NCBI GenBank assembly: GCA_003402345.1
Contig: QFXH01000007.1
Span: 1 to 64,000, forward strand
Direction: 5' to 3'
Source of the DNA: Candidatus Nitrotoga sp. MKT
GTDB taxonomy: Bacteria; Pseudomonadota; Gammaproteobacteria; Burkholderiales; Gallionellaceae
DNA: 64,000 nt
Both the position numbers and the translations under genes were made by a program. Numbering within the stretch: position 1 is the stretch's first letter; every line of letters starts with the position of its first letter. Of the stretch, positions 6,827-16,997 are shown piece by piece. The notes beneath the pieces are model-generated. The model saw only the letters and a list, made by a program, of their open reading frames with translations. It made no database searches and was not told the DNA's origin.

Positions 6827-7065
6827 GAGTGTTTTATTAAGGTCCAATGCATTGCAGTTAAATATTTGTTGGCCATGTATCCTGCGATCAGAAACAAGCT
6901 GCTTGTCATATTCAAAATGATTGTTATGACTTTATTTACAGCATGTAGATAACCAAAAAAGACGAACCGCCATTCATAATGGAATCAAACAAAAAATCAG
7001 CCTGAAAAAAATGGATACGTCATCCCAGCAAACAAACAAGCTTTAAGTCTATGCGGGTAACATTA

Positions 7066-7084
7066 AATGCAATAATGTTGCATT
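7066..7084. promoter_or_regulatory. Candidate Zur operator 1
   Basis: Perfect inverted repeat AATGCAA-TAATG-TTGCATT between the Zur-type gene and the ZIP gene. Fur-family repressors bind AT-rich palindromes of about this size. The ATGCAA-N5-TTGCAT core is shared with the second palindrome 39 bp away. The binding protein is inferred from the neighbours. Confidence 0.55.
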
Positions 7085-7096
7085 GTAACTGCGACA

Positions 7097-7131
7097 GACC
7101 AAGTTATGCAACATAGTTGCATAACTTGGTC
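7097..7131. promoter_or_regulatory. Candidate Zur operator 2, a 35-bp perfect palindrome
   Basis: Arms GACCAAGTTATGCAAC and GTTGCATAACTTGGTC surround ATA. Its centre contains ATGCAA-N5-TTGCAT, the same core as the repeat at 7066-7084. It lies 19 bp beyond the stop of the Zur-type gene. No T-tract follows on the minus strand, so operator is preferred over terminator, though a dual role is possible. Confidence 0.5.
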
Positions 7132-7150
7132 TTATTGAAGTGAAAAAGAA

Positions 7151-7570
7151 CTACCGGGAAATGGGACGGCCACAATCATCGCAGACGCCCTTGATATTGA
7201 GTTCAATTGACTCAACCGTAAAATGCTTGGGTAAATTGGCCAGTTCTGGCTCTATTTCTGTTAGACAGCAAATCTTGCCACACTCTATACATTGAAAATG
7301 TGCATGCCGGTGAGTTGTATCAGGGTGTGTAGCCTGAAATCGGCACGCCCGGCCAGTACCAGCTACTTTGTGGGCCAGACCATGAATAACAAGCCAATCC
7401 AGCACCCGATAAACAGTGACTCGATCAAACTCACCCAGGCTTTTAAGCTTTTCGAGAACTTCCGGATGAGTAAGAGCGCTTCCTGCATTTAACAAAACAC
7501 CAAGTACAGCACTCCTCACAGCCGTAGGACGCTCGCCAATTTCTTGTATCATTTGATCAGCTTTATTCAT
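7151..7570 (-). CDS. zur: Fur-family transcriptional repressor, probably Zur
   Basis: A 139-residue protein. The N-terminal winged helix includes 'LTHPEVLEKLKSLGEFDRVTVYRVLDWL'. The metal-binding region is 'HRHAHFQCIECGKICCL' and the C-terminal Cys pair is 'CDDCG'. The four structural-zinc Cys (CxxC...CxxC) and the His-rich 'THRHAHF' are typical of Fur-family sensors. Fur proper is excluded by the neighbourhood: every adjacent gene is a zinc-homeostasis family. Expected role: with zinc bound it represses the ZIP, COG0523 and ZrgA-cluster genes downstream. The start is ATG (MNKADQM). Confidence 0.85.
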   Translation of the reverse strand: MNKADQMIQEIGERPTAVRSAVLGVLLNAGSALTHPEVLEKLKSLGEFDRVTVYRVLDWLVIHGLAHKVAGTGRACRFQATHPDTTHRHAHFQCIECGKICCLTEIEPELANLPKHFTVESIELNIKGVCDDCGRPISR

Positions 7571-7747
7571 AATATTTAAATTAACGGCTTAATGGGTCAC
7601 GTCAATTAGCTTAGCTGTGTCATGACGAATCATGGATTTTCTCTTAATTTTTGTGTCAAATAATTTAGATGGGATCTTTCAATGAAAGATTATCATGGGA
7701 AGTATAGAGTTGATGTAATTAATTATGTTCGACCCGTGAATTTTGAA

Positions 7748-9073
7748 TTATTTAATTGGTGCGAGAATTGTCCTTGCACACAACATTCCACTCATTACCG
7801 CGCCTTCCAGCGTAGCCGGATATTTACCCGCCGTATAATCGCCTGCTAACAACACGTTGGGCATTTGTGTGGTATGGGCAGGGCGAAGCAGGTTTGTTTC
7901 ACAGGAGAAGGTGGCGCGTTTTTCTGCAATAACTTTTTGCCACACAGGCGCTTCCATTATTCCAAGTTGCTCACACAATTCTTGTGCCACCTTCTGTGCT
8001 AACAGTTCATGCTTTAAATTCTGATGTTTCCCTTGTGCGCTAATAACGGCGGCGATGAGGCCACGCTGTCCGGCGATTTGTCCTTTATCAAACAGCCATT
8101 GGGCAAAGCAGCGGTCTAAACCCAGCATCGGGTGCGGCAAACATACATGTTCGGGATATTGCAGATACACGGTATAAATTGGTTGATATGGAATGGCTGC
8201 AATTTGCCCAGCTATCAATGCAAGTTGCGGCACGGTATGGAATAGCCGCGCAGCCGAAATGGGTGAAGTTGCACAAATGACATGGCTGAATAGCTCAGTA
8301 TGCGCAGTGGATAGTATCGTTTGGCGGGTAGTTAACCTGATTTCGTCGCCGTTTGGAATGATGGTTTCTATGCTGCAAGCGGTAAGCACCGTGCCCCTAT
8401 GTTGTTTGACATATTCGGCCGCCCGCTCTGGAAATAGTGCCGTGAAATCTATGCGTGGCAGCAGCATGTCGCTATCGTTGCGCGCACCATTTAGGCTATC
8501 GCGTAATACGTTCAGTAACACCTGAGCGGAAGCAATATGCATCGGTGTGTTAAGTGCGGAGATGCAAAGCGGTTCCCATAGTAATCGTATTAGTCCATCA
8601 CTTTGGCTATGCGTGCGTAATAATTCAAACACACTGATGTCGTGCAGCAAGGTGAAATTAATGCGCCTCAGCGCCAGCATAAAACGTGCGGCACGCAGCC
8701 GTTCGCCAAATGACAATCCCTTTGCGCTGAGTAGTCCAACCAGTAAATGGAGTGGGGCAGGCAGATTGGGTGCTTTTAATTCAAAGCGATTGTGCAAGGT
8801 GAGTTGCAGCGGCAAACGGAGGAAGTCGTGCTCGATGTTACCGCCGACTTGTTCAATAAGCTGTAGTGTATGGTGATAGCAGCCAAGCAGGATGTGCTGG
8901 CCGTTATCAAGTTGAACATTGTTATGCCACACGCCGCGCGCGCGCCCGCCGAGTTGCCTGGCGCTTTCGAATACCGTAACTGGAATATTTGCCGCCGCGA
9001 GTGTAACGGCGGCGGCCATGCCGGAGTAGCCGCCGCCAATAATGGCGACATGATGATTTTTATTATTGCTCAC
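7748..9073 (-). CDS. hpnE: Hydroxysqualene dehydroxylase HpnE
   Basis: A 441-residue FAD-dependent amine-oxidase-like enzyme. The N-terminal dinucleotide motif is 'VAIIGGGYSGMAAAVTLAAANIPVTVFE' (residues ~9-36), then 'GGRARG', and the C-terminal FAD motif is 'NVLLAGDYTAGKYPATLEGAVMSG'. HpnE reduces hydroxysqualene to squalene, completing the HpnCDE route that replaces squalene synthase in many bacteria. It is the third gene of a same-strand hpnC-hpnD-hpnE set, 45 bp after hpnD. The cyclase gene (shc/hpnF) is not in this window, so the downstream hopanoid step must lie elsewhere. Confidence 0.92.
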   Translation of the reverse strand: MSNNKNHHVAIIGGGYSGMAAAVTLAAANIPVTVFESARQLGGRARGVWHNNVQLDNGQHILLGCYHHTLQLIEQVGGNIEHDFLRLPLQLTLHNRFELKAPNLPAPLHLLVGLLSAKGLSFGERLRAARFMLALRRINFTLLHDISVFELLRTHSQSDGLIRLLWEPLCISALNTPMHIASAQVLLNVLRDSLNGARNDSDMLLPRIDFTALFPERAAEYVKQHRGTVLTACSIETIIPNGDEIRLTTRQTILSTAHTELFSHVICATSPISAARLFHTVPQLALIAGQIAAIPYQPIYTVYLQYPEHVCLPHPMLGLDRCFAQWLFDKGQIAGQRGLIAAVISAQGKHQNLKHELLAQKVAQELCEQLGIMEAPVWQKVIAEKRATFSCETNLLRPAHTTQMPNVLLAGDYTAGKYPATLEGAVMSGMLCARTILAPIK

Positions 9074-9118
9074 AATACCAATTTTTTGTTCACTTTGGGC
9101 GTAGTGAAGTACAGGAAA

Positions 9119-9952
9119 TTAATTTTTCACCCAAGTCTTCCATGCCAGCCACAGTTTGTGCAGAGGGGTGAGCGAGACGCGTTCTTTTAACACATGACAA
9201 CCGCTGTCAACGATTTCTTCTAGAGTAGTCCGATAAATTGCCGCCATAATTAAACCGGTACGCTGTGGCTTGCGGTCTATAGCGGGCAGTTGCTCAAGTG
9301 CCCGCTGGTAATAGCGTTGTGCGCGGTCGACCTGAAACTGCATGAGTTTTTGAAAACCTTCGCTTTCCTTGTTATCAAGAATATCGTTGACGTGTACGCC
9401 AAAAAGCGCCAACTCACCAAGCGGCAGGTAGATGCGCCCGCGCCGGGCGTCTTCACCCACGTCGCGGATGATATTGGTAAGCTGGAAAGCAAGGCCAAGA
9501 TCGTGCGCATATTTAAGCGTATTAGGATCAGTGTAGCCAAAAATTTCCGCAGCGAGCAGCCCCACTACCGAGGCGACACGATAACAATACTGTTGCAAGG
9601 CTTTGAAATCGGCATATTGGTGTTGTTGCAAATCCATTTCCATACCGTTGATGATCTCGTGGAAATGTTCTTGAGGCAGGCTGTACTGTTTAACCACCGG
9701 TACCAATGCCCGTGCAACTGGATGCTGCGGCGTGCCCGTGTAAATGGCGGCCACTTCGGTACGCCACCACGCCAGCGTAGCGCGTGCTACGTTCTCATCT
9801 GAATTTTCGTCCACAACATCGTCTACTTCGCGACAAAAAGCATACAACGCTGTGATAGCGCGGCGCTTGTCTGGCGGCAGAAACATAAAACTGTAATAAA
9901 AGCTCGAACCGCTTTGGGCTGCCTTGTCTTTGCAATACTGATCTGGAGTCAT
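9119..9952 (-). CDS. hpnD: Presqualene diphosphate synthase HpnD
   Basis: A 277-residue trans-isoprenyl synthase of the squalene/phytoene synthase family. Two Asp-rich motifs are visible: 'FCREVDDVVDE' (near residue 44) and 'LTNIIRDVGEDARRGRIYLP' (near 165). It condenses two farnesyl diphosphates to presqualene diphosphate. The 'GRIYLPLGELALFGV' segment fits HpnD rather than HpnC. I chose the ATG at 9950-9952; a TTG four codons upstream is open. It lies 39 bp after hpnC. Confidence 0.92.
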   Translation of the reverse strand: MTPDQYCKDKAAQSGSSFYYSFMFLPPDKRRAITALYAFCREVDDVVDENSDENVARATLAWWRTEVAAIYTGTPQHPVARALVPVVKQYSLPQEHFHEIINGMEMDLQQHQYADFKALQQYCYRVASVVGLLAAEIFGYTDPNTLKYAHDLGLAFQLTNIIRDVGEDARRGRIYLPLGELALFGVHVNDILDNKESEGFQKLMQFQVDRAQRYYQRALEQLPAIDRKPQRTGLIMAAIYRTTLEEIVDSGCHVLKERVSLTPLHKLWLAWKTWVKN

Positions 9953-9991: not shown

Positions 9992-10807
9992 TTAAAAGCT
10001 AAATGGCGCACTTTTTCCCAGCATAATAACCCAGTCAAATGGACGCAACACAGGACGCCGGCGAAACATGTCGAACTGCACGGCTTCAAGTTTATCGAGT
10101 ATGCGATTGCCGCCCGCAATGATGAGCCTCATCTCAATACCGATACGGCCAGTCAGTATGCTGCCAAGGGGGGCGCCACTACGCATCATGTCGCGTGTGC
10201 GTTGAACTTGAAACTGCATAAGTTGTTGCCATTCCTTATCTACGCGGCCATCCGCGATATGCGCTTCAGTTACGCCAAAGTGTGCCATCTCATCCTGCGG
10301 CAAATAGATGCGGTTGATGGCATAGTCTTTTGTTACATCCTGCCAAAAATTAATGAGTTGCAGACTGGTACATATAGCGTCGGAATATTGCAGATTTGGG
10401 GGGCTAGCTTCTTCATACAGGTGTAACAACAACCTGCCGACGGGATTAGCGGAACGGCTGCAATAATCCAGCAGTTCGTCGAAATTGGCGTAACGCTTTT
10501 TGAGTACATCCTGCGAAAAAGCGTCAAGCAGATCGTGGAATAATTGCAGCGGCAACTGATGCCGCGCAATGATCTCCGCCAAGTCACAAAACAAAGGGGT
10601 AAGCGGTGTTTCATTGGCCGCAATGCGCTTGAGTTCACTGCGAAACCCATCAAGCGCCGTAAAACGTTCTTCATTTTGGAGATCACCCTCATCGGCAAAA
10701 TCGTCAGCCTGACGGGCAAAATGGTAAATTATTTCAACTGCCCGCCGCAAACGTTTAGGCAGAAGTATGGAAGCGACAGGAAAGTTTTCGTAGTGATTGA
10801 CGGCCAT
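9992..10807 (-). CDS. hpnC: Hydroxysqualene synthase HpnC
   Basis: A 271-residue member of the squalene/phytoene synthase family. It begins 'NHYENFPVASILLPKRLR', typical of HpnC. The Asp-rich motifs are 'FARQADDFADEGD' and 'LINFWQDVTKDYAINRIYLP'. It converts presqualene diphosphate to hydroxysqualene. First of three same-strand genes (hpnC, hpnD, hpnE). Start is the ATG at 10805-10807. Confidence 0.92.
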   Translation of the reverse strand: MAVNHYENFPVASILLPKRLRRAVEIIYHFARQADDFADEGDLQNEERFTALDGFRSELKRIAANETPLTPLFCDLAEIIARHQLPLQLFHDLLDAFSQDVLKKRYANFDELLDYCSRSANPVGRLLLHLYEEASPPNLQYSDAICTSLQLINFWQDVTKDYAINRIYLPQDEMAHFGVTEAHIADGRVDKEWQQLMQFQVQRTRDMMRSGAPLGSILTGRIGIEMRLIIAGGNRILDKLEAVQFDMFRRRPVLRPFDWVIMLGKSAPFSF

Positions 10808-10969
10808 TTTGGGACAAGCTTTGATCAGTGATTATGGTGTTGATGGGAATTTAGGACACAGCAACTGTGAGGGTAATGGCCGCTACGTGGTACATGCTTG
10901 CATTAAGAAATGTACGCGGTGATGTCACCTCGCGCTTGGCAAGGGCTTGCTGATGTAACAAAGCCCCGG

Positions 10970-11269
10970 TCAGTCCGACGTGGGGTAGTGGTAGTAGATA
11001 GTATTCAGATGTCGCGCAACGTCTTCAACGTCTTCATTATTCCACCCAAGTTTTGCAATTCCCTGCCAGCGTTGTACTTCTGACTGTAGACTTGCCCAGT
11101 CAGTAACGAGCTTCTTTTCCCGCCAATGCACTTGGGTACTGTGGCAAGCAATGCAATGCGTTGAATACAACAACTCACCACGTGGAGCGTTGTGTATTAA
11201 TTGTGCTTCGGCGTTAGCGAAATTTCCGAATAAGACGAACAGCACGGCGAGTATCAATCTTTGAAACAT
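10970..11269 (-). CDS. Small periplasmic c-type cytochrome
   Basis: A 99-residue protein with a signal peptide (FQRLILAVLFVLFGNFANAEA) and one haem c site 'CIACH' at residues 38-42. A possible distal Met ligand is not obvious. The C-terminal part 'LQSEVQRWQG...WNNEDVEDVARHLNTIYY' is conserved in small cytochromes of Nitrosomonadales-type bacteria. Role unknown, presumably electron transfer in the periplasm. It lies 162 bp upstream of hpnC on the same strand; whether it is cotranscribed is unclear. Confidence 0.8.
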   Translation of the reverse strand: MFQRLILAVLFVLFGNFANAEAQLIHNAPRGELLYSTHCIACHSTQVHWREKKLVTDWASLQSEVQRWQGIAKLGWNNEDVEDVARHLNTIYYHYPTSD

Positions 11270-11639
11270 GTCGACCTCCCAGTAAACGTTAACATACGGT
11301 TCAGTATATACCCCCGTACAAGGTTTTGTCGCCTGGCACCCTTGGTGTTCATGGCGGAAGAGAGATCGCTGAAAAAATTTTTAAGCTCGGGTATTCTTCA
11401 AGAAGAACACTCTGACCCACGAGCTTTGACTGCCATTTTGGAGCGGTTGCAGACAGCCTTACTACCAGCGTTGGGACAACTCGCTTGAGGACAGTGATCA
11501 AAGTTTCAGCGTACCCGTCGCTAGCCGACAATTCTGCTGTGTGGGAGAATTAACTAAATTAGACAATAAAATTTAGACTCTGCAATCAAAAAAGCGAGAC
11601 AATGCATAAAGTAGAAAACAAAATCCCGACGCTTAATAA
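11270..11639. other. Intergenic stretch without a supported gene
   Basis: Between the cytochrome gene and the decayed coding sequence at 11640. I see short open frames but no recognisable protein. The stretch marks the left boundary of the accessory insert. Confidence 0.4.
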
Positions 11640-11943
11640 GGTCATCACATACCTCAGGACGGCAAATCTACAACGCTATCCGCAAGCAAACCCCTTCCTA
11701 ACTCCATCCGGTTCGGTGATCTGCTCTTTCAATTTGTCAAAGTCAAAGCGGATAACATCACGGATATCGAATGGGATCTGGTTGTACTCAACGAAGTGCA
11801 GCGCAATAAATTGATTCATAATATGAAATACAATTACTGAAGCGGGTGCAAAGGCAAACCCTATTCACCGTGAAATAGGGATCCAGATGTGGGGCAAGGG
11901 TAAACGCAATGTCGACGACCAAATTAAAGAAATTGGTAATTGA
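11640..11943 (+). pseudogene. Decayed coding sequence of unknown family
   Basis: Two adjoining frames both look coding and appear to be one broken gene. Frame one (11640-11840) has no ATG near its start and contains 'GKSTTLSASKPLPNS', 'RFGDLLFQFVKVKADNI' and 'DIEWDLVVLNEVQRNKLI'. Frame two (11827-11943) continues 'EAGAKANPIHREIGIQMWGK' and stops inside the first codons of the ATPase gene. I do not recognise the protein. It may be the C-terminus of a lost first gene of the cassette (inference). Confidence 0.4.
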
Positions 11944-13591
11944 AAAATTCCGTGCGCTGAATAATGTAGAAGTCGAGTTTGGCGATCACATTACAGTCAT
12001 ATGCGGAAAGAATGGCACGTCTAAGTCGTCTATTCTGGGTATTGCCGCGCAAATTTTTAGCTTTGAGAAAGACTATGTAAAGAATAAAAATCTTTCCTTC
12101 CGACAAATTGCTGGCGGGGCTTTCAAGTCACAATACAGTGAACACTTCAGAATCTCCGATAAGTTCGATTTATCTGGATCAATGACAGTCAATATCGAGT
12201 TAGATGAGGGATATACTAATCAAGCCGCGACGGCAAAACTCGAATTGATGAAGCGAGGGAAGTCGCCAAGACCCGTAGTCAGAAACAACAGCATAGCAAC
12301 CGGAAATACAAGTAGGAACTTTACGCATCCGGTCATTTTCCTCAGTTTGAAGCGCCTTTACCCCATCGCAGACAGAGACTACGAGATCAATGACTTCGAT
12401 TACCTGCAAGAACACAAGCAGGATTTCATTGCTCTTACCAACGAGCTTCTTAATCGTAGTTCTTCTCACGCCACGGGTACGGGAGGAACCATCAGCTCAG
12501 CCGTAGCGCACGGCGAAAACTACGACCAAGAGTCTGTTTCCGCAGGTGAAGACAATGCGGGCCAGATCATTTTGGCGCTAATGTCTTTCAGGAAGTTAAA
12601 GGAAGAGTATCCCGATTACAAGGGTGGGCTGCTGCTGATAGATGAAGCGGATGCAGGGCTGTTCCCGACTGCGCAGGTGAATCTGCTGAAAATCCTCGAC
12701 CGTGAGTGTAAGAGCCTGAATCTTCAGGTTGTCATGACATCACACTCACCGGTCTTGATTGAATATGCGTTCGAACAGAGCCAGAAGTTCAAAAGAAAAT
12801 ACAAGACGGTTTATCTGAGCAATACCTTTGGCGATGTTCAGGTGATGCAGGATTGGTCTTGGGCACAAATCAGCGCGGACATCAACACGAAGACCATTGC
12901 CGCAGCTTCTGGGGCGTCTTTACCGAAGGTCAACGTCTATTTCGAGGATAAGGAGGCTGCGGATTTTTTCGCTGCCTTGATGAGTCGGCAGCCAGTAAAA
13001 AAATTCACGACCCCCATGTCGGATATAACTCTTGGTTGCTCCAACTATCTGCAGTTGATTCAGAAGGGAATTCCCGAGTTTGCCCAAAGAAGCATCGTCT
13101 GTCTGGATGCGGATCAGGCGCTACAGATCGAAGGAAAGAACTTCAAGACGGTTGTTCTTTTGCCCGGCGCTTTGCCGCCCGACCAGTTGATTTTTGAGCA
13201 CCTGTATAACCTTTCCGCCGGTCACGAATTCTGGAAGAACGATATGCAGTTCACGCGAGATGTATTTACCAACGCAGCCCGTGAAGTGATAAACGAGTTC
13301 GCAATCAACGGAGATGCTGCTGATGTGAAAACGCGTGTCGCCGCGTATCAGGGAGAAAAAAAGCCAAGGGAAGTCTTCAAGCGATTTTACAAGGGCGAGG
13401 ACTTTCAAAATTTGGTGTCCTCTGGCGCAAAACCCTATAACCCGTGGATGCACTGGGTCAAAAATAATCCTGTGGTCAGCAACGAATTCTTGGAAAAATT
13501 CAAAACCGCCATCCACGACGTGATGAAAAACGGATATACCGTCGATGTGTCCAAGCTGACCGTGTTGGAAGTGACGCCGAGGAAAGTGTAG
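11909..13591 (+). CDS. OLD-like protein: AAA/ABC-type ATPase with C-terminal Toprim-like domain
   Basis: A 560-residue protein. The N-terminal SMC/ABC-like ATPase has Walker A 'CGKNGTSKSS' (~32-41), a signature-like 'SAGEDNAGQI' (211-220), Walker B 'LLLIDEADAG' (241-250) and the H-loop 'MTSHSP' (276-281). From ~340 a Toprim-like domain follows: 'VNVYFEDKEAADFF' with Glu346, and 'SIVCLDAD' with Asp400 and Asp402, then 'LPGALPPDQLIFEHL'. This is the layout of OLD-family nucleases and the AriA/AriB type of defence proteins. The start ATG has a GGGCAAGGG stretch upstream. The adjacent methyltransferase gene begins 2 bp after the stop. Role in phage or plasmid defence is inference. Confidence 0.8.
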   Translation: MSTTKLKKLVIEKFRALNNVEVEFGDHITVICGKNGTSKSSILGIAAQIFSFEKDYVKNKNLSFRQIAGGAFKSQYSEHFRISDKFDLSGSMTVNIELDEGYTNQAATAKLELMKRGKSPRPVVRNNSIATGNTSRNFTHPVIFLSLKRLYPIADRDYEINDFDYLQEHKQDFIALTNELLNRSSSHATGTGGTISSAVAHGENYDQESVSAGEDNAGQIILALMSFRKLKEEYPDYKGGLLLIDEADAGLFPTAQVNLLKILDRECKSLNLQVVMTSHSPVLIEYAFEQSQKFKRKYKTVYLSNTFGDVQVMQDWSWAQISADINTKTIAAASGASLPKVNVYFEDKEAADFFAALMSRQPVKKFTTPMSDITLGCSNYLQLIQKGIPEFAQRSIVCLDADQALQIEGKNFKTVVLLPGALPPDQLIFEHLYNLSAGHEFWKNDMQFTRDVFTNAAREVINEFAINGDAADVKTRVAAYQGEKKPREVFKRFYKGEDFQNLVSSGAKPYNPWMHWVKNNPVVSNEFLEKFKTAIHDVMKNGYTVDVSKLTVLEVTPRKV

Positions 13592-13593
13592 CG

Positions 13594-14469
13594 ATGTTCT
13601 CAAACAGATTGTATAGCCCCTTGCGCTATCCTGGCGGAAAAGCGCCATTCGCTCCATTCATTGCGAAGGTGATGGGGGAGAACGGCGTTGCAGGTGGCCA
13701 TTATTTGGAGCCGTATGCGGGTGGGGCCGGTGTCGCGCTCGATTTGCTTTTTCATGGTCATGCCAGCCATATCCACATCAACGATGCCGACCCTGCGGTT
13801 TACGCTTTCTGGATTTCCGTAACCCAGCATTCCAGCGCGCTCCTGAAGTTACTTGAGTCCACCCCGATAACTATCGAAGAGTGGTTCAAGTGGAGGTCGG
13901 TTCTCCGTGATGAGCGCAAAGCGAGTTTGGTGGAAAAAGGTTTCGCAACTTTGTTTATGAACCGGACGAATCGCTCTGGAATTCTAAAGGCGGGCGTTAT
14001 CGGCGGCAAAAATCAGGATGGTAATTACAAGTTGGATGCACGCTTCAAGAAAGAGATCGTAGCTGCACGTATCGAGGAGATTGCCAAGCGGGCGGGCGAC
14101 ATTTCGGTGTACTGCGAGGATTCGTTACATCTCTTGAATCGATGCTCGGAGCTTTTGCCAAAGCAATCTTTAATCTACCTTGACCCACCTTACTACGTTA
14201 AAGGCAAGGGATTGTATCGCAATTATTACGAACATGACGATCATGCTGCCATTGCCAAGATCATTCAGCAGAAAAAATTCAAATGGCCGTGGATTGTGTC
14301 TTATGACAATGCCACAGAGATTTGTGCCATGTATCAGATGAGCCAATCATTGAGCTATGGCCTGAACTACACAGCACAGAGACGCTATGTCGGAAATGAA
14401 GTAATGTTTTTTAGTCAAAACCTTGTAGTCCCAGATGAGGCCATTCCACAAACCAAGGCAGTTGGCTAA
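13594..14469 (+). CDS. D12-class DNA adenine N6-methyltransferase (Dam-like)
   Basis: A 291-residue methyltransferase. It begins 'SPLRYPGGKAPFAPFI' (AdoMet-binding region of D12 enzymes), then motif I 'YLEPYAGGAGVALDLLF' and catalytic motif IV 'LIYLDPPYYVKGKGLY' (~195-210). The order and length match Dam/M.DpnII-type enzymes, which methylate adenine. The target sequence cannot be read from the protein. It starts 2 bp after the ATPase-Toprim gene with no Shine-Dalgarno of its own, so it is probably translationally coupled. The pairing suggests self-marking for a nuclease partner rather than a housekeeping Dam. Confidence 0.88.
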   Translation: MFSNRLYSPLRYPGGKAPFAPFIAKVMGENGVAGGHYLEPYAGGAGVALDLLFHGHASHIHINDADPAVYAFWISVTQHSSALLKLLESTPITIEEWFKWRSVLRDERKASLVEKGFATLFMNRTNRSGILKAGVIGGKNQDGNYKLDARFKKEIVAARIEEIAKRAGDISVYCEDSLHLLNRCSELLPKQSLIYLDPPYYVKGKGLYRNYYEHDDHAAIAKIIQQKKFKWPWIVSYDNATEICAMYQMSQSLSYGLNYTAQRRYVGNEVMFFSQNLVVPDEAIPQTKAVG

Positions 14470-14596
14470 CAGCAGTCATACAAAGCAAATTAATGAGCTA
14501 CAAACAAAAACTCGAACCACCTGGACCAGCAAGAAAAAACACGCCCGGATTGAACCGCATATCCTGAGCGATCACCTCTTCAAACCCTTGGTGTGA
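14462..14596 (+). CDS. Possible 44-residue basic protein overlapping the methyltransferase stop
   Basis: An open frame starts with TTG overlapping the methyltransferase stop (TTGGCTAA) and ends at 14596. It contains '[20 protein letters not shown]' and '[14 protein letters not shown]'. The composition looks protein-like, but there is no family match I know and no Shine-Dalgarno. It may be a third cassette gene or a remnant. Confidence 0.25.
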
Positions 14597-14636
14597 GGTC
14601 GTGTACCTACAAATGTATGACATTAAGGAAGACGAA

Positions 14637-16997
14637 ATGCTGCTATCTGCCGCTCCCTTGACACCAGAAGAACTCCACTTGATTGACGCTTACTGGCGCG
14701 CCGCCAACTATCTTTCCGTTGGGCAAATTTACCTGCTGGACAATCCGCTTTTAAAAGTGCCACTGGAGCTGGCGCACATCAAACCACGCTTGCTGGGCCA
14801 CTGGGGTACTACACCGGGGCTCAATTTTATCTACGCGCATATGAACAGAATTATCAAAGCGCATGGCCTCAACATGTTTTTTGTCGCTGGCCCGGGCCAT
14901 GGCGGCCCAGCTGTGGTGGCCAACACGTATCTTGAAGGTACGTATAGCGAACTGTATTCCGATATTTCCCGGGACGAAGAAGGCATGCGGCAACTGTTCC
15001 GGCAATTCTCCTTCCCGGGCGGGATACCTAGCCATGCCGCACCGGAGACACCTGGTTCCATCAATGAGGGGGGAGAGTTGGGTTATTCGCTGTTCCATGC
15101 GTATGGCGCGGTGTTTGATAACCCTGGTCTTATCGCCTGCTGCGTAGTTGGTGACGGAGAGGCGGAAACTGGGCCGCTGGCCACCTCTTGGCATTCCAAC
15201 AAATTTCTCAACCCGCGCACGGACGGGGCTGTATTGCCCATCCTACATCTCAACGGTTACAAAATCGCCAGTCCGACCATACTCGCGCGCATGAGTCGGG
15301 AAGAGCTGGCGAATCTATTTGCGGGCTATGGCCACAAGCCTTATTTTGTGGAAGGTGACGAGCCTGAAGCTATGCACACACTCATGGCCGCTACTCTCGA
15401 TGTGGTGATCGCCGAGATTCGCGATATTCAGCGCAAAGCACGCGAGGGCAGCTTGGTGGGCCGTTCACTCTGGCCCATGATCGTGTTGTGCAGCCCCAAG
15501 GGATGGACCGGCCCGAAAGAGGTGGACGGAAAGAAAACCGAAGGCTATTGGCGCTCGCATCAGGTGCCGTTCGGCAACATGGAGAAGCCGGAACATGTGC
15601 GGCTGCTGGAAAGCTGGATGAAATCCTACCGGTCTGAAGAGCTGTTCGATGACAATGGTACGCTCAAACCAGAACTGACGGCGCTCGCACCGACTGGGGA
15701 TCGCCGCATGGGCGCCAATCCCCATACCAACGGCGGTATGCTGCTGCGCGACCTGCGCCTGCCGGATTTCCAGGATTACGCGGTGGCGGTAGATTTACCC
15801 GGCGGTAGTATCGCTGAATCCACTCGGGTAATGGGGGGCTTTCTACGCGATGTAATGCAGAAGAACCGCGATAATTTTCGCGTGTTCGGTCCGGATGAGA
15901 CCGCTTCCAATCGGCTGGGTGCGCTATTCGAAGTGACAGACCGCGTCTGGATGGGTTTACGGTATGATTTCGACGATCATCTCGCCCCCGATGGCCGGGT
16001 AATGGAAATACTATCCGAACACGCTTGTCAGGGTTGGTTGGAAGGTTATCTGCTCACTGGCCGCCACGGATTGTTCTCATGCTATGAAGCCTTCATCCAT
16101 ATTGTGGACTCAATGTTCAACCAGCATGCCAAATGGCTCAAGGTGTGCCGCGAAATTCCCTGGCGCCGTCCCATTGCTTCGTTAAATATCTTGCTCACCT
16201 CGCATGTCTGGCAACAGGATCACAACGGCTTCTCGCATCAGGATCCCGGCTTTATCGATCATGTCATGAACAAGAAGGCGGATATTATCCGCGTCTATCT
16301 GCCTCCAGACGCCAATACGCTACTTTGTGTTACCGACCAATGCCTGCGCAGCCGCAATTTGGTGAATGTTATTGTCGCCGGTAAACAACCCGCGCAACAA
16401 TGGCTGGATATGAAAGCCGCCATCAACCACACCAGCGCAGGCATAGGCTTGTGGGAATGGGCCTGCAACGACCAAGCCAGCGAGCCGGATGTGGTTCTGG
16501 CGGCGGCGGGCGATGTGCCCACACTGGAAATGCTGGCGGCCATAGATATTTTGCGCCAGCTGACGCCGGAGCTAAGAATGCGCTTTATCAACGTGGTCGA
16601 CTTGATGACCCTGCAACCGCAGGAGGAACACCCGCACGGCTTGTCCGGCAAGGAATTCGATTCCCTGTTCACCACCGGCAAGCCGATCATTTTCGCTTAC
16701 CACGGCTATCCGTGGTTGATTCATCGCCTGACTTATCGCCGTACTAACCACGACAATCTTCACGTGCGCGGCTACAAAGAAGAAGGCACCACTACCACGC
16801 CATTTGATATGGTTGTGCTGAACACCCTTGACCGTTTCCATTTGGTAATGGACGTGGCAAACCGGGTGCCGAAATTGCAGGCACAAGCGGTACACATCAA
16901 ACAGCGTATGCGCGACAAACTTAACGAGCATACGCAATACATTCACCAGTTCGGCCAAGATATGCCTGAAATACGCGACTGGAAATGGCCACAATGA
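14637..16997 (+). CDS. xfp: Xylulose-5-phosphate/fructose-6-phosphate phosphoketolase
   Basis: A 786-residue thiamine-diphosphate enzyme of normal family length. It cleaves X5P or F6P with phosphate to acetyl phosphate plus GAP or E4P. Family motifs are present: '[15 protein letters not shown]', '[15 protein letters not shown]', the TPP motif '[19 protein letters not shown]', 'SPKGWTGP' and '[18 protein letters not shown]'. I chose the ATG at 14637 because AAGGA lies 7 bases upstream; in-frame GTG (14601) and ATG (14613) are less likely. The acetate kinase gene overlaps its stop codon, so acetyl phosphate would be converted directly to acetate plus ATP. Confidence 0.93.

Follow-up and report, generated by a model that had tools for sequence, protein, structure and literature searches.

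The locus described here raises the question of whether an OLD-like ATPase and the adenine DNA methyltransferase encoded directly behind it make up a defence system and, if so, whether that system is of a new kind. The two genes lie in a 64,000-nucleotide stretch of Candidatus Nitrotoga sp. MKT (contig QFXH01000007.1, positions 1 to 64,000 of the forward strand), referred to here as the window. An earlier note on this DNA had read them as a possible undescribed defence cassette, and both open reading frames (ORFs) are present as it described, 2 bp apart:

11909..13591, + strand: OLD-like ATP-binding cassette (ABC) ATPase with a C-terminal Toprim-like domain, 560 amino acids (aa) (ORF, Pfam, PADLOC, alignment, Foldseek and PHROG)
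13594..14469, + strand: D12-class adenine DNA methyltransferase of the PD-Lambda-5_B family, 291 aa (Pfam MethyltransfD12 and PADLOC PDLC04018)

Our best reading is that an OLD-like ATPase–Toprim protein has replaced, or joined, the partner of the anti-phage system PD-lambda-5, which would make the cassette a partner-swapped relative of that system and not a wholly undescribed kind. The two-gene system is probably defensive and restriction-like, and it most likely shields cells and prophages from other viruses. The claim of novelty thus survives for one half only: the methylase is already catalogued as PD-Lambda-5_B, and no PADLOC, NCBIfam or Pfam model covers the ATPase as a member of a named system among the matches listed (the best 25 of 128 for PADLOC and the best 25 of 30 for NCBIfam).

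The methylase matches the PADLOC model PD-Lambda-5_B (PDLC04018) over residues 6–284, near full length, with 381 bits and an E value of 8.5e-115. It scores 61.2 bits against Pfam MethyltransfD12 (cut-off 22), in agreement with the D12 class given in the earlier note, and falls below the NCBIfam Dam cut-off (55.1 versus 114.85 bits). No NCBIfam cut-off was reached by any of the three matches of the methylase or by the best 25 of the 30 matches of the ATPase. The solved relatives found were PDB entry 7m6b (1.3e-31) and the DpnII methylase (PDB entry 2dpm; 4.3e-11). Two sequence motifs, which we take to be AdoMet-binding motif I and catalytic motif IV, are conserved in the 38 aligned methylases:

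13708..13731, + strand: AdoMet (S-adenosylmethionine)-binding motif I (EPYAGGAG), residues 39–46; Glu39, Gly43 and Gly44 invariant
14182..14193, + strand: catalytic motif IV (DPPY), residues 197–200; invariant

The ATPase alignment comprised 52 sequences including that of the window, with identities to the latter down to 29%. The following motifs are invariant in it at the residues given:

12005..12028, + strand: Walker A, residues 33–40 (GKNGTSKS); Gly33, Asn35, Lys39 and Ser40 invariant
12641..12646, + strand: Walker B, Asp245-Glu246 (LLLIDE)
12743..12745, + strand: H-loop, His279

The signature-like residues Ser211 and Gly213 are also invariant, and Pfam AAA_15, AAA_21 and AAA_23 each match the protein above their gathering scores. 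The N-terminal ABC ATPase with Walker A, Walker B and H-loop that is expected of an OLD-family protein is thus present. PHROG family phrog_3940, of unknown function, spans residues 4–542 (E 5.4e-147). The full-length AlphaFold model has a pLDDT (predicted local distance difference test) of 89.1 and a pTM (predicted template-modelling score) of 0.59, so the placement of the domains is unsure. Searching Foldseek with this model returned GajA at the top (9.0e-13 and 2.6e-12), followed by Thermus OLD (PDB entry 6p74; 7.0e-12), with TM-scores of ∼0.3. VIA-align covered only residues ∼1–330, with Z scores of 15–18 to the heads of SMC, Rad50, PtuA and AriA among the best 50 matches listed, and a separate model of the C-terminal part was made for this reason.

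The C-terminal part alone (residues 330–560) was modelled with a pLDDT of 93.9 and a pTM of 0.90. The model and the alignment of 52 sequences place the following features in it:

12929..13159, + strand: Toprim-like core, residues 341–417, with alternating strands and helices (C-terminal model, weak fold matches and profile match)
12944..12949, + strand: Glu346-Asp347, at the end of the first Toprim strand; invariant
13106..13114, + strand: Asp400-x-Asp402 (DxD), at the end of a later core strand; invariant

In the model, Glu346 directly follows the first core strand and Asp400 and Asp402 directly follow the later one. The best fold match is the C-terminal domain of Xanthomonas OLD (Foldseek E 0.051, probability 0.80; VIA Z 6.0, root-mean-square deviation 5.2 Å, 164 residues aligned). 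Further weak matches are a chain of a PARIS complex, which is probably AriB since the other chain of the complex is named AriA, Burkholderia OLD and retron Eco2; OLD C-terminal domains and the PARIS chain take the first four places in Foldseek. A profile of the C-terminal part was compared with the five ATPase-Toprim_I-B relatives fetched (5/5), all of which show E-D and DxD; it aligned with P 1.6e-7 and a probability of 93.9%, with the acidic residues in register. Against the same target the reversed alignment gave P 0.56, the methylase profile 0.051 and a ParB-like profile 0.26. An earlier comparison with two of the five loci, a Walker A filter having dropped the other three, gave P 4.9e-6. 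We therefore describe the domain as Toprim-like, of the flavour seen in the retron ATPase-Toprim proteins; its predicted glutamate and DxD are those expected of the Toprim domain of an OLD-family protein, subject to the fold scores and the class 1 OLD comparison discussed below. The earlier description of an OLD-like ATPase with a Toprim-like domain agrees with these invariant residues and with the profile match.

Both genes are real, intact and strongly constrained by purifying selection. The ATPase gene is present as a single copy in the genome (2.71 Mb, 23 contigs), and its stop codon is followed after 2 bp by the methylase start at 13594; the sequence GAGGAAAG close to the 3′ end of the ATPase gene may be a ribosome site for the methylase gene. 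Between the window and locus L010 the proportion of nonsynonymous differences (pN) is 0.079 for the ATPase and 0.059 for the methylase, against synonymous proportions (pS) of 0.590 and 0.517, and the same trend was found in all 16 comparisons made; pS is close to saturation in several of these, and dN/dS is thus not quoted. Chance is excluded because the pair is conserved and pN is far below pS. Promoter and terminator scans gave matches no better than those in shuffled sequence, and repeat searches at the locus gave nothing of note. Rfam had no noncoding RNA (ncRNA) match in 10800–14800, where an undescribed ncRNA is still possible.

As expected by the earlier note, the pair is conserved outside this genome. 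When genome loci were fetched by the ATPase alone, the methylase was present in 15/15 and directly downstream in 14/15. The exception is L021, in which it lies ∼1.9 kb from the ATPase, next to a PD-Lambda-5_A-like gene. Three loci (L020, L022 and L024) have one gene or both broken into several pieces. A search of the IMG/VR viral contigs with the window ATPase alone found no relatives, and with the alignment as the query it found 107, of which the best 80 were used. A methylase homologue lies within ∼2 kb of the ATPase in 66 of these 80 loci: 60 downstream on the same strand (49–155 bp between alignment ends), three upstream and three on the opposite strand (two within 60 bp and one at 2 kb). 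Near-copies are frequent, with 51 of the 90 ATPases from both searches left after the removal of those at least 88% identical. For the other 14 viral-contig loci, six have at most 513 bp of downstream DNA and eight have 1.1–6 kb; a methylase profile search found none in the 14. The pairing spans Pseudomonadota, Bacillota, Fusobacteriota, Actinomycetota and one Bacteroidota metagenome-assembled genome, occurs in prophages, plasmids and chromosomes and takes several gene orders; distant pairs are found in Streptococcus, Nicoliella, Fusobacterium, Staphylococcus and Psychrobacter.

In E. coli, 85 of 5,426 genomes cover at least 80% of the two-gene phiNP query, all in the chromosome. A methylase-only query also gives 85 genomes, which may be the same ones, and an ATPase-only megablast gives two; because all 85 places of the pair cover at least 80% of the query, we attribute the low count to the 28-base exact-word limit of megablast. 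The single E. coli locus inspected (L187, strain Ec-RL2-1X, 7055–9768) has the pair flanked by two integrase-type genes, and phage tail genes lie to one side of it. The system is rare: in a phylum sample of 398 genomes including that of the window, the ATPase occurs in two (E ≤ 1e-20) and the methylase subfamily in 13 (E ≤ 1e-40).

The ATPases of L094–L099, L102 and L107 are 38–41% identical to that of the window; the copy in L094 lies behind a gene for a CI/S24-type repressor, and the three loci scanned (L094, L098 and L107) have other adenine or N4/N6 methylases no more than 5 kb away. In L021 (5219–9664; record titled Mycobacterium sp. 1081908.1) an interrupted ATPase relative, 70–76% identical, is divergent from a ParB-like and methylase pair. 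This host is unusual for so near a relative of the ATPase, and contamination or recent transfer is possible.

The system with which the cassette shares its methyltransferase family, PD-lambda-5, is an experimentally selected E. coli anti-phage system that altered plating or plaque size for all but one of ten phages; the available text of the source paper describes it as a prophage-borne two-gene unit and its discoverers term it an RM+Abi (restriction–modification and abortive infection) system (PMC9519451). The available parts of PMC12629846, PMC10799925 and PMC12421847 give no mechanism for it. Its partner, PD-Lambda-5_A, is ParB-like and differs from the window ATPase, with which a profile comparison gave a probability of 0.3%, indicating that the two are unrelated. 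The model PDLC04017 (one of 25 PD-Lambda-5_A models, mostly 428–613 positions long) had no match in the window genome, and matched no control either; a 12-sequence PD-Lambda-5_A profile also found nothing there and was positive in 3/3 of the records from which it was built. The link of the PD-Lambda-5_A-like proteins to ParB comes from one record annotated as ParB/Srx and from a split copy matching ParB_N at E 0.0058, below the cut-off; five such proteins had no Pfam match at 0.01, and the ParB-like profile found only a weak match in the PDB, to a ParB-like nuclease domain protein (E 0.61). Mrr attacks methylated DNA. PD-lambda-5 was cloned in a host without the mrr region (PMC9519451), which thus suggests that its methylase may be active.

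How the methylase is distributed over its partners was followed in the sample of 398 genomes and in a tree. Eight of the 13 methylases in the sample have a PD-Lambda-5_A-like protein within 3 kb, two have the ATPase (the window included) and three have neither, one of these three being at a contig end. The tree holds 65 methylases chosen by hand from several searches. Partners were looked for up to 3 kb away, so any that lie past the end of a shorter record are missed; 41 methylases are linked to the ATPase, 14 to the ParB-like protein, five to both and five to neither. In the best tree the label changes between ATPase and ParB at least five times over the 55 single-partner rows, and 14 times when all four labels are used. 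The starred branches alone, with each label set against the rows of all other groups, force four changes for the ATPase label and six for the ParB label; L132 (ParB), for example, is sister to L105 (ATPase) with a support of 100/98 in a clade that is otherwise ATPase-linked. Five long branches (L037, L034, L139, L090 and L115) are placed unsurely. The labels are nevertheless clustered, with 14 changes against a mean of 22.3 after shuffling and none of 200 shuffles as low. Partner switching is thus repeated but not free.

All three genes occur together in five distinct loci of the tree (L005, L021, L047, L092 and L115; L114 looks the same as L115). In L115 (2151–7557) five consecutive genes encode an AbiLi-like ATPase, a protein weakly matched by PDC-M38B, a PD-Lambda-5_A-like ParB protein, the methylase and the ATPase-Toprim protein, possibly a stacked multi-layer system. 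The first third of the PDC-M38A model (PDLC04607, 715 positions) matches PD-Lambda-5_A-like proteins and its second half an AbiLi-type ATPase, and this profile suggests that ParB–ATPase fusions may exist. In L028 (Vibrio phage 10N.286.54.E5_PE002, 4986–9428) the genes beside a methylase of the family encode a HerA-like protein, a P-loop protein and a 459-aa protein that neither PADLOC nor Pfam matches; they may make up a third type of partner set.

The surroundings of the window pair were compared with the same site in the genus, where both flanks lie near each other on one contig in six of the 18 other genomes searched:

11357..14566, no strand assigned: approximate accessory insert between a putative cytochrome c gene and a phosphoketolase gene (same-genus genome comparison)

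The flank matches are ∼3.27 kb apart in the window and only 194–216 bp apart in four genomes (G010, G014, G015 and G018), where the site is empty, as the accessory insert proposed in the earlier note would have it; in G009 the distance is 540 bp. In G003 (L155, 642–6164) the flanks are 91–93% identical and enclose 5.8 kb encoding a helix–turn–helix protein and a type III-like restriction–modification pair, with PADLOC matches to MTase_III (8.1e-76) and, for the REase_III-like protein, 4.5e-21. As the site holds a type III system in G003 and is empty in sister genomes, it accepts exchangeable defence-type cargo and is a defence hotspot in Candidatus Nitrotoga. The genes on both sides are housekeeping genes (squalene/phytoene synthases, phosphoketolase, acetate kinase and the putative cytochrome c, a name read from the sequence of a protein with no Pfam match at 1e-5). 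Integration linked to a tRNA was dropped as an explanation, the window holding no tRNA. Upstream of the ATPase, overlapping open stretches in two frames (11563–11840) resemble a coding remnant, with no Pfam match in 11640–11837.

Near related pairs, ten neighbouring proteins from seven loci were chosen by eye. They include DrmD-like helicases (L015 and L016), PD-T4-4_A (L015), a type III methyltransferase and PDC-S05 (L013), an HKD+Snf2 protein (L019), PDC-M19B (L012) and the type III pair of G003; the neighbour from L023 had no match. These surroundings agree with defence islands; the neighbours being picked by eye, no enrichment statistic is attached to them.

Compared with the named systems, the cassette shares parts with several of them. 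Gabija also has an OLD-like ATPase with a Toprim-like domain, and GajA is the best PADLOC match of the window ATPase (2.1e-17; best stretch 239–283), but a Pfam scan of ten window neighbours found no UvrD-like helicase and the cassette has a methylase instead. The ATPase-Toprim effector of type I-B retrons has the same domain order and its C-terminal acidic residues in register, with PDLC02914 matching residues 227–419; unlike in these retrons, no reverse transcriptase turned up in the scan of the ten neighbours, and Rfam matched no ncRNA in the interval given above. PARIS also combines an OLD-like ABC ATPase with a Toprim-type effector, but the best stretch of the AriAB model is only residues 5–75 and, to our knowledge, PARIS has no methylase. 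Pfam DUF4435 does not match; a PARIS chain is among the weak fold matches. Of the two halves of a type II restriction–modification system, only the methylase is recognizable in the cassette (Pfam and PADLOC). Septu, BREX and DISARM were dropped, as the scan of the ten neighbours revealed neither an HNH partner nor a core gene. The class 1 OLD proteins (P2 Old and Thermus OLD, the latter among the Foldseek matches above) are likewise single-polypeptide ATPase-Toprim proteins, but they are described as single genes (PMC10568477), whereas the window ATPase and most of its viral-contig relatives have a methylase near; ten relatives found with the Old model show E-G-x-x-E and DxD, and the window protein E-D and DxD. 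The OLD classes are defined by context as single (1), Gabija (2), retron (3), PARIS (4) and archaeal (5), and the available text of the two papers concerned includes no methylase-linked class (PMC10568477, PMC12796447); among the papers listed, no title or abstract describes the pair. A 2020 survey of ABC ATPases (doi 10.1093/nar/gkaa726) may hold a prior mention of it. The methylome paper on A. baumannii, in its available part, concerns a different RM system (PMC10287943).

The function that we propose, on which we are about evenly divided, is that of a two-gene system acting against phages or other elements, with DNA methylation as its licence. The D12 methylase would mark adenines in the DNA of the host or of the prophage itself, and the OLD-like ATPase would scan DNA as an ATP-dependent ABC dimer; on unmarked DNA it would engage the Toprim-like nuclease (Glu346, Asp347, Asp400 and Asp402), which would cleave the DNA and restrict the invader. 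The methylase would be the hub of the arrangement, with members of its family sitting with the ATPase-Toprim protein, with the unrelated ParB-like PD-Lambda-5_A or with both in related loci. What we infer from the sequences is an active, self-marking methylase, an ATPase that recognizes its mark, cleavage of DNA by the nuclease and, as the net effect, defence against phages. Several observations weigh against this proposal. None of the Toprim fold matches reaches E 0.001 or Z 8, and response-regulator folds score about level with the OLD domain (Z 5.9 versus 6.0), so that taken alone the fold scores are weak, no better than chance might give, and insufficient for the assignment. The C-terminal profile has no significant match to class 1 OLD C-termini (P 0.043; 10 of 20 fetched OLD loci passing the Walker A filter), and against the methylase profile, an unrelated control, it reached P 0.0044, so only values far below this count. 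Eight loci (L094–L099, L102 and L107) keep the ATPase without a PD-Lambda-5_B-type methylase, which is thus not strictly required; they form one group, seven of them being at least 96.8% identical to each other and L102 ∼59–62% identical to the seven. The protein distances of the two genes correlate only moderately (Spearman 0.55 over the 29 loci in both alignments; maximum of 1,000 permutations 0.48), in keeping with occasional reshuffling. No methylation reader was identified in the ATPase, and the action of AriB and other Toprim relatives on RNA favours abortive infection.

Were the C-terminal domain flavodoxin-like or receiver-like and without nuclease activity, the protein would be a SMC/PtuA-like sensor acting through another effector. 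The level scores of the receiver structures would fit this, as would the absence of a Pfam Toprim or DUF4435 match in the 560-aa protein and of a useful PDB sequence match to the C-terminal profile (best E 0.2). We nonetheless regard it as highly improbable: all 52 sequences keep the four acidic residues at the two canonical Toprim positions, exactly these residues are paired in the ATPase-Toprim_I-B alignment and the leading Foldseek hits are OLD and PARIS domains. The profile evidence for Toprim is stronger than the fold scores, and the Toprim fold that the earlier note had offered as a check is not refuted. That the two genes are independent cargo, an orphan methylase shielding a prophage from host restriction and a separate ATPase for superinfection exclusion or DNA maintenance, also seems improbable, if less so. 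Methylases of the family do occur with another partner or none recognized (14/65 ParB-only and 5/65, respectively), and the eight loci above have the ATPase without such a methylase; against this, the two genes stay together, in several arrangements, across five phyla and in prophages, plasmids and chromosomes, and the pair query and the methylase-only query each give 85 E. coli genomes, perhaps the same ones. A weightier alternative, doubtful but deserving serious consideration, is an abortive guard in which the methylase or its mark silences the ATPase-Toprim protein until phage inhibition or unmarked DNA lets the Toprim domain cleave host RNA or DNA and arrest the cell, like AriA/AriB. The ATPase part resembles AriA (1.4e-16) and PtuA (5.1e-16) in PADLOC, and the Toprim part aligns with the ATPase-Toprim_I-B relatives and weakly with the probable AriB chain; the available text of PMC12839542 describes AriB as cleaving host tRNAs and proposes a backup role as suicidal effectors for the OLD-ABC/Toprim modules found in BREX loci. 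Nothing direct separates such a guard from restriction, and the systems of Vassallo et al. (2022) include both kinds, 9/21 direct and 12/21 probable Abi, in the available text (PMC9519451). By analogy with PD-lambda-5, an RM+Abi system, methylation-licensed restriction is plausible and abortive infection fits as well; we slightly favour restriction, and sequence cannot tell the two apart.

We also suggest, tentatively and with somewhat more doubt than belief, that the cassette represents a new OLD class of methylation-licensed ATPase-Toprim nucleases, in which one methylase family is the shared ‘self’ licence for two unrelated effectors or sensors, the ATPase-Toprim and the ParB-like proteins, so that one mark would gate both restriction and abortive infection as two layers. 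A tool that demands both halves of PD-lambda-5 would, these results suggest, report only a lone methylase at the window locus. The exchange of partners makes the mechanism of PD-lambda-5 testable, as a single methyl mark is expected to control whatever the two partners have in common, and the version in E. coli prophages allows this to be tested in laboratory strains. For the OLD family, methylation may be the answer, in this lineage, to how self is told from non-self.

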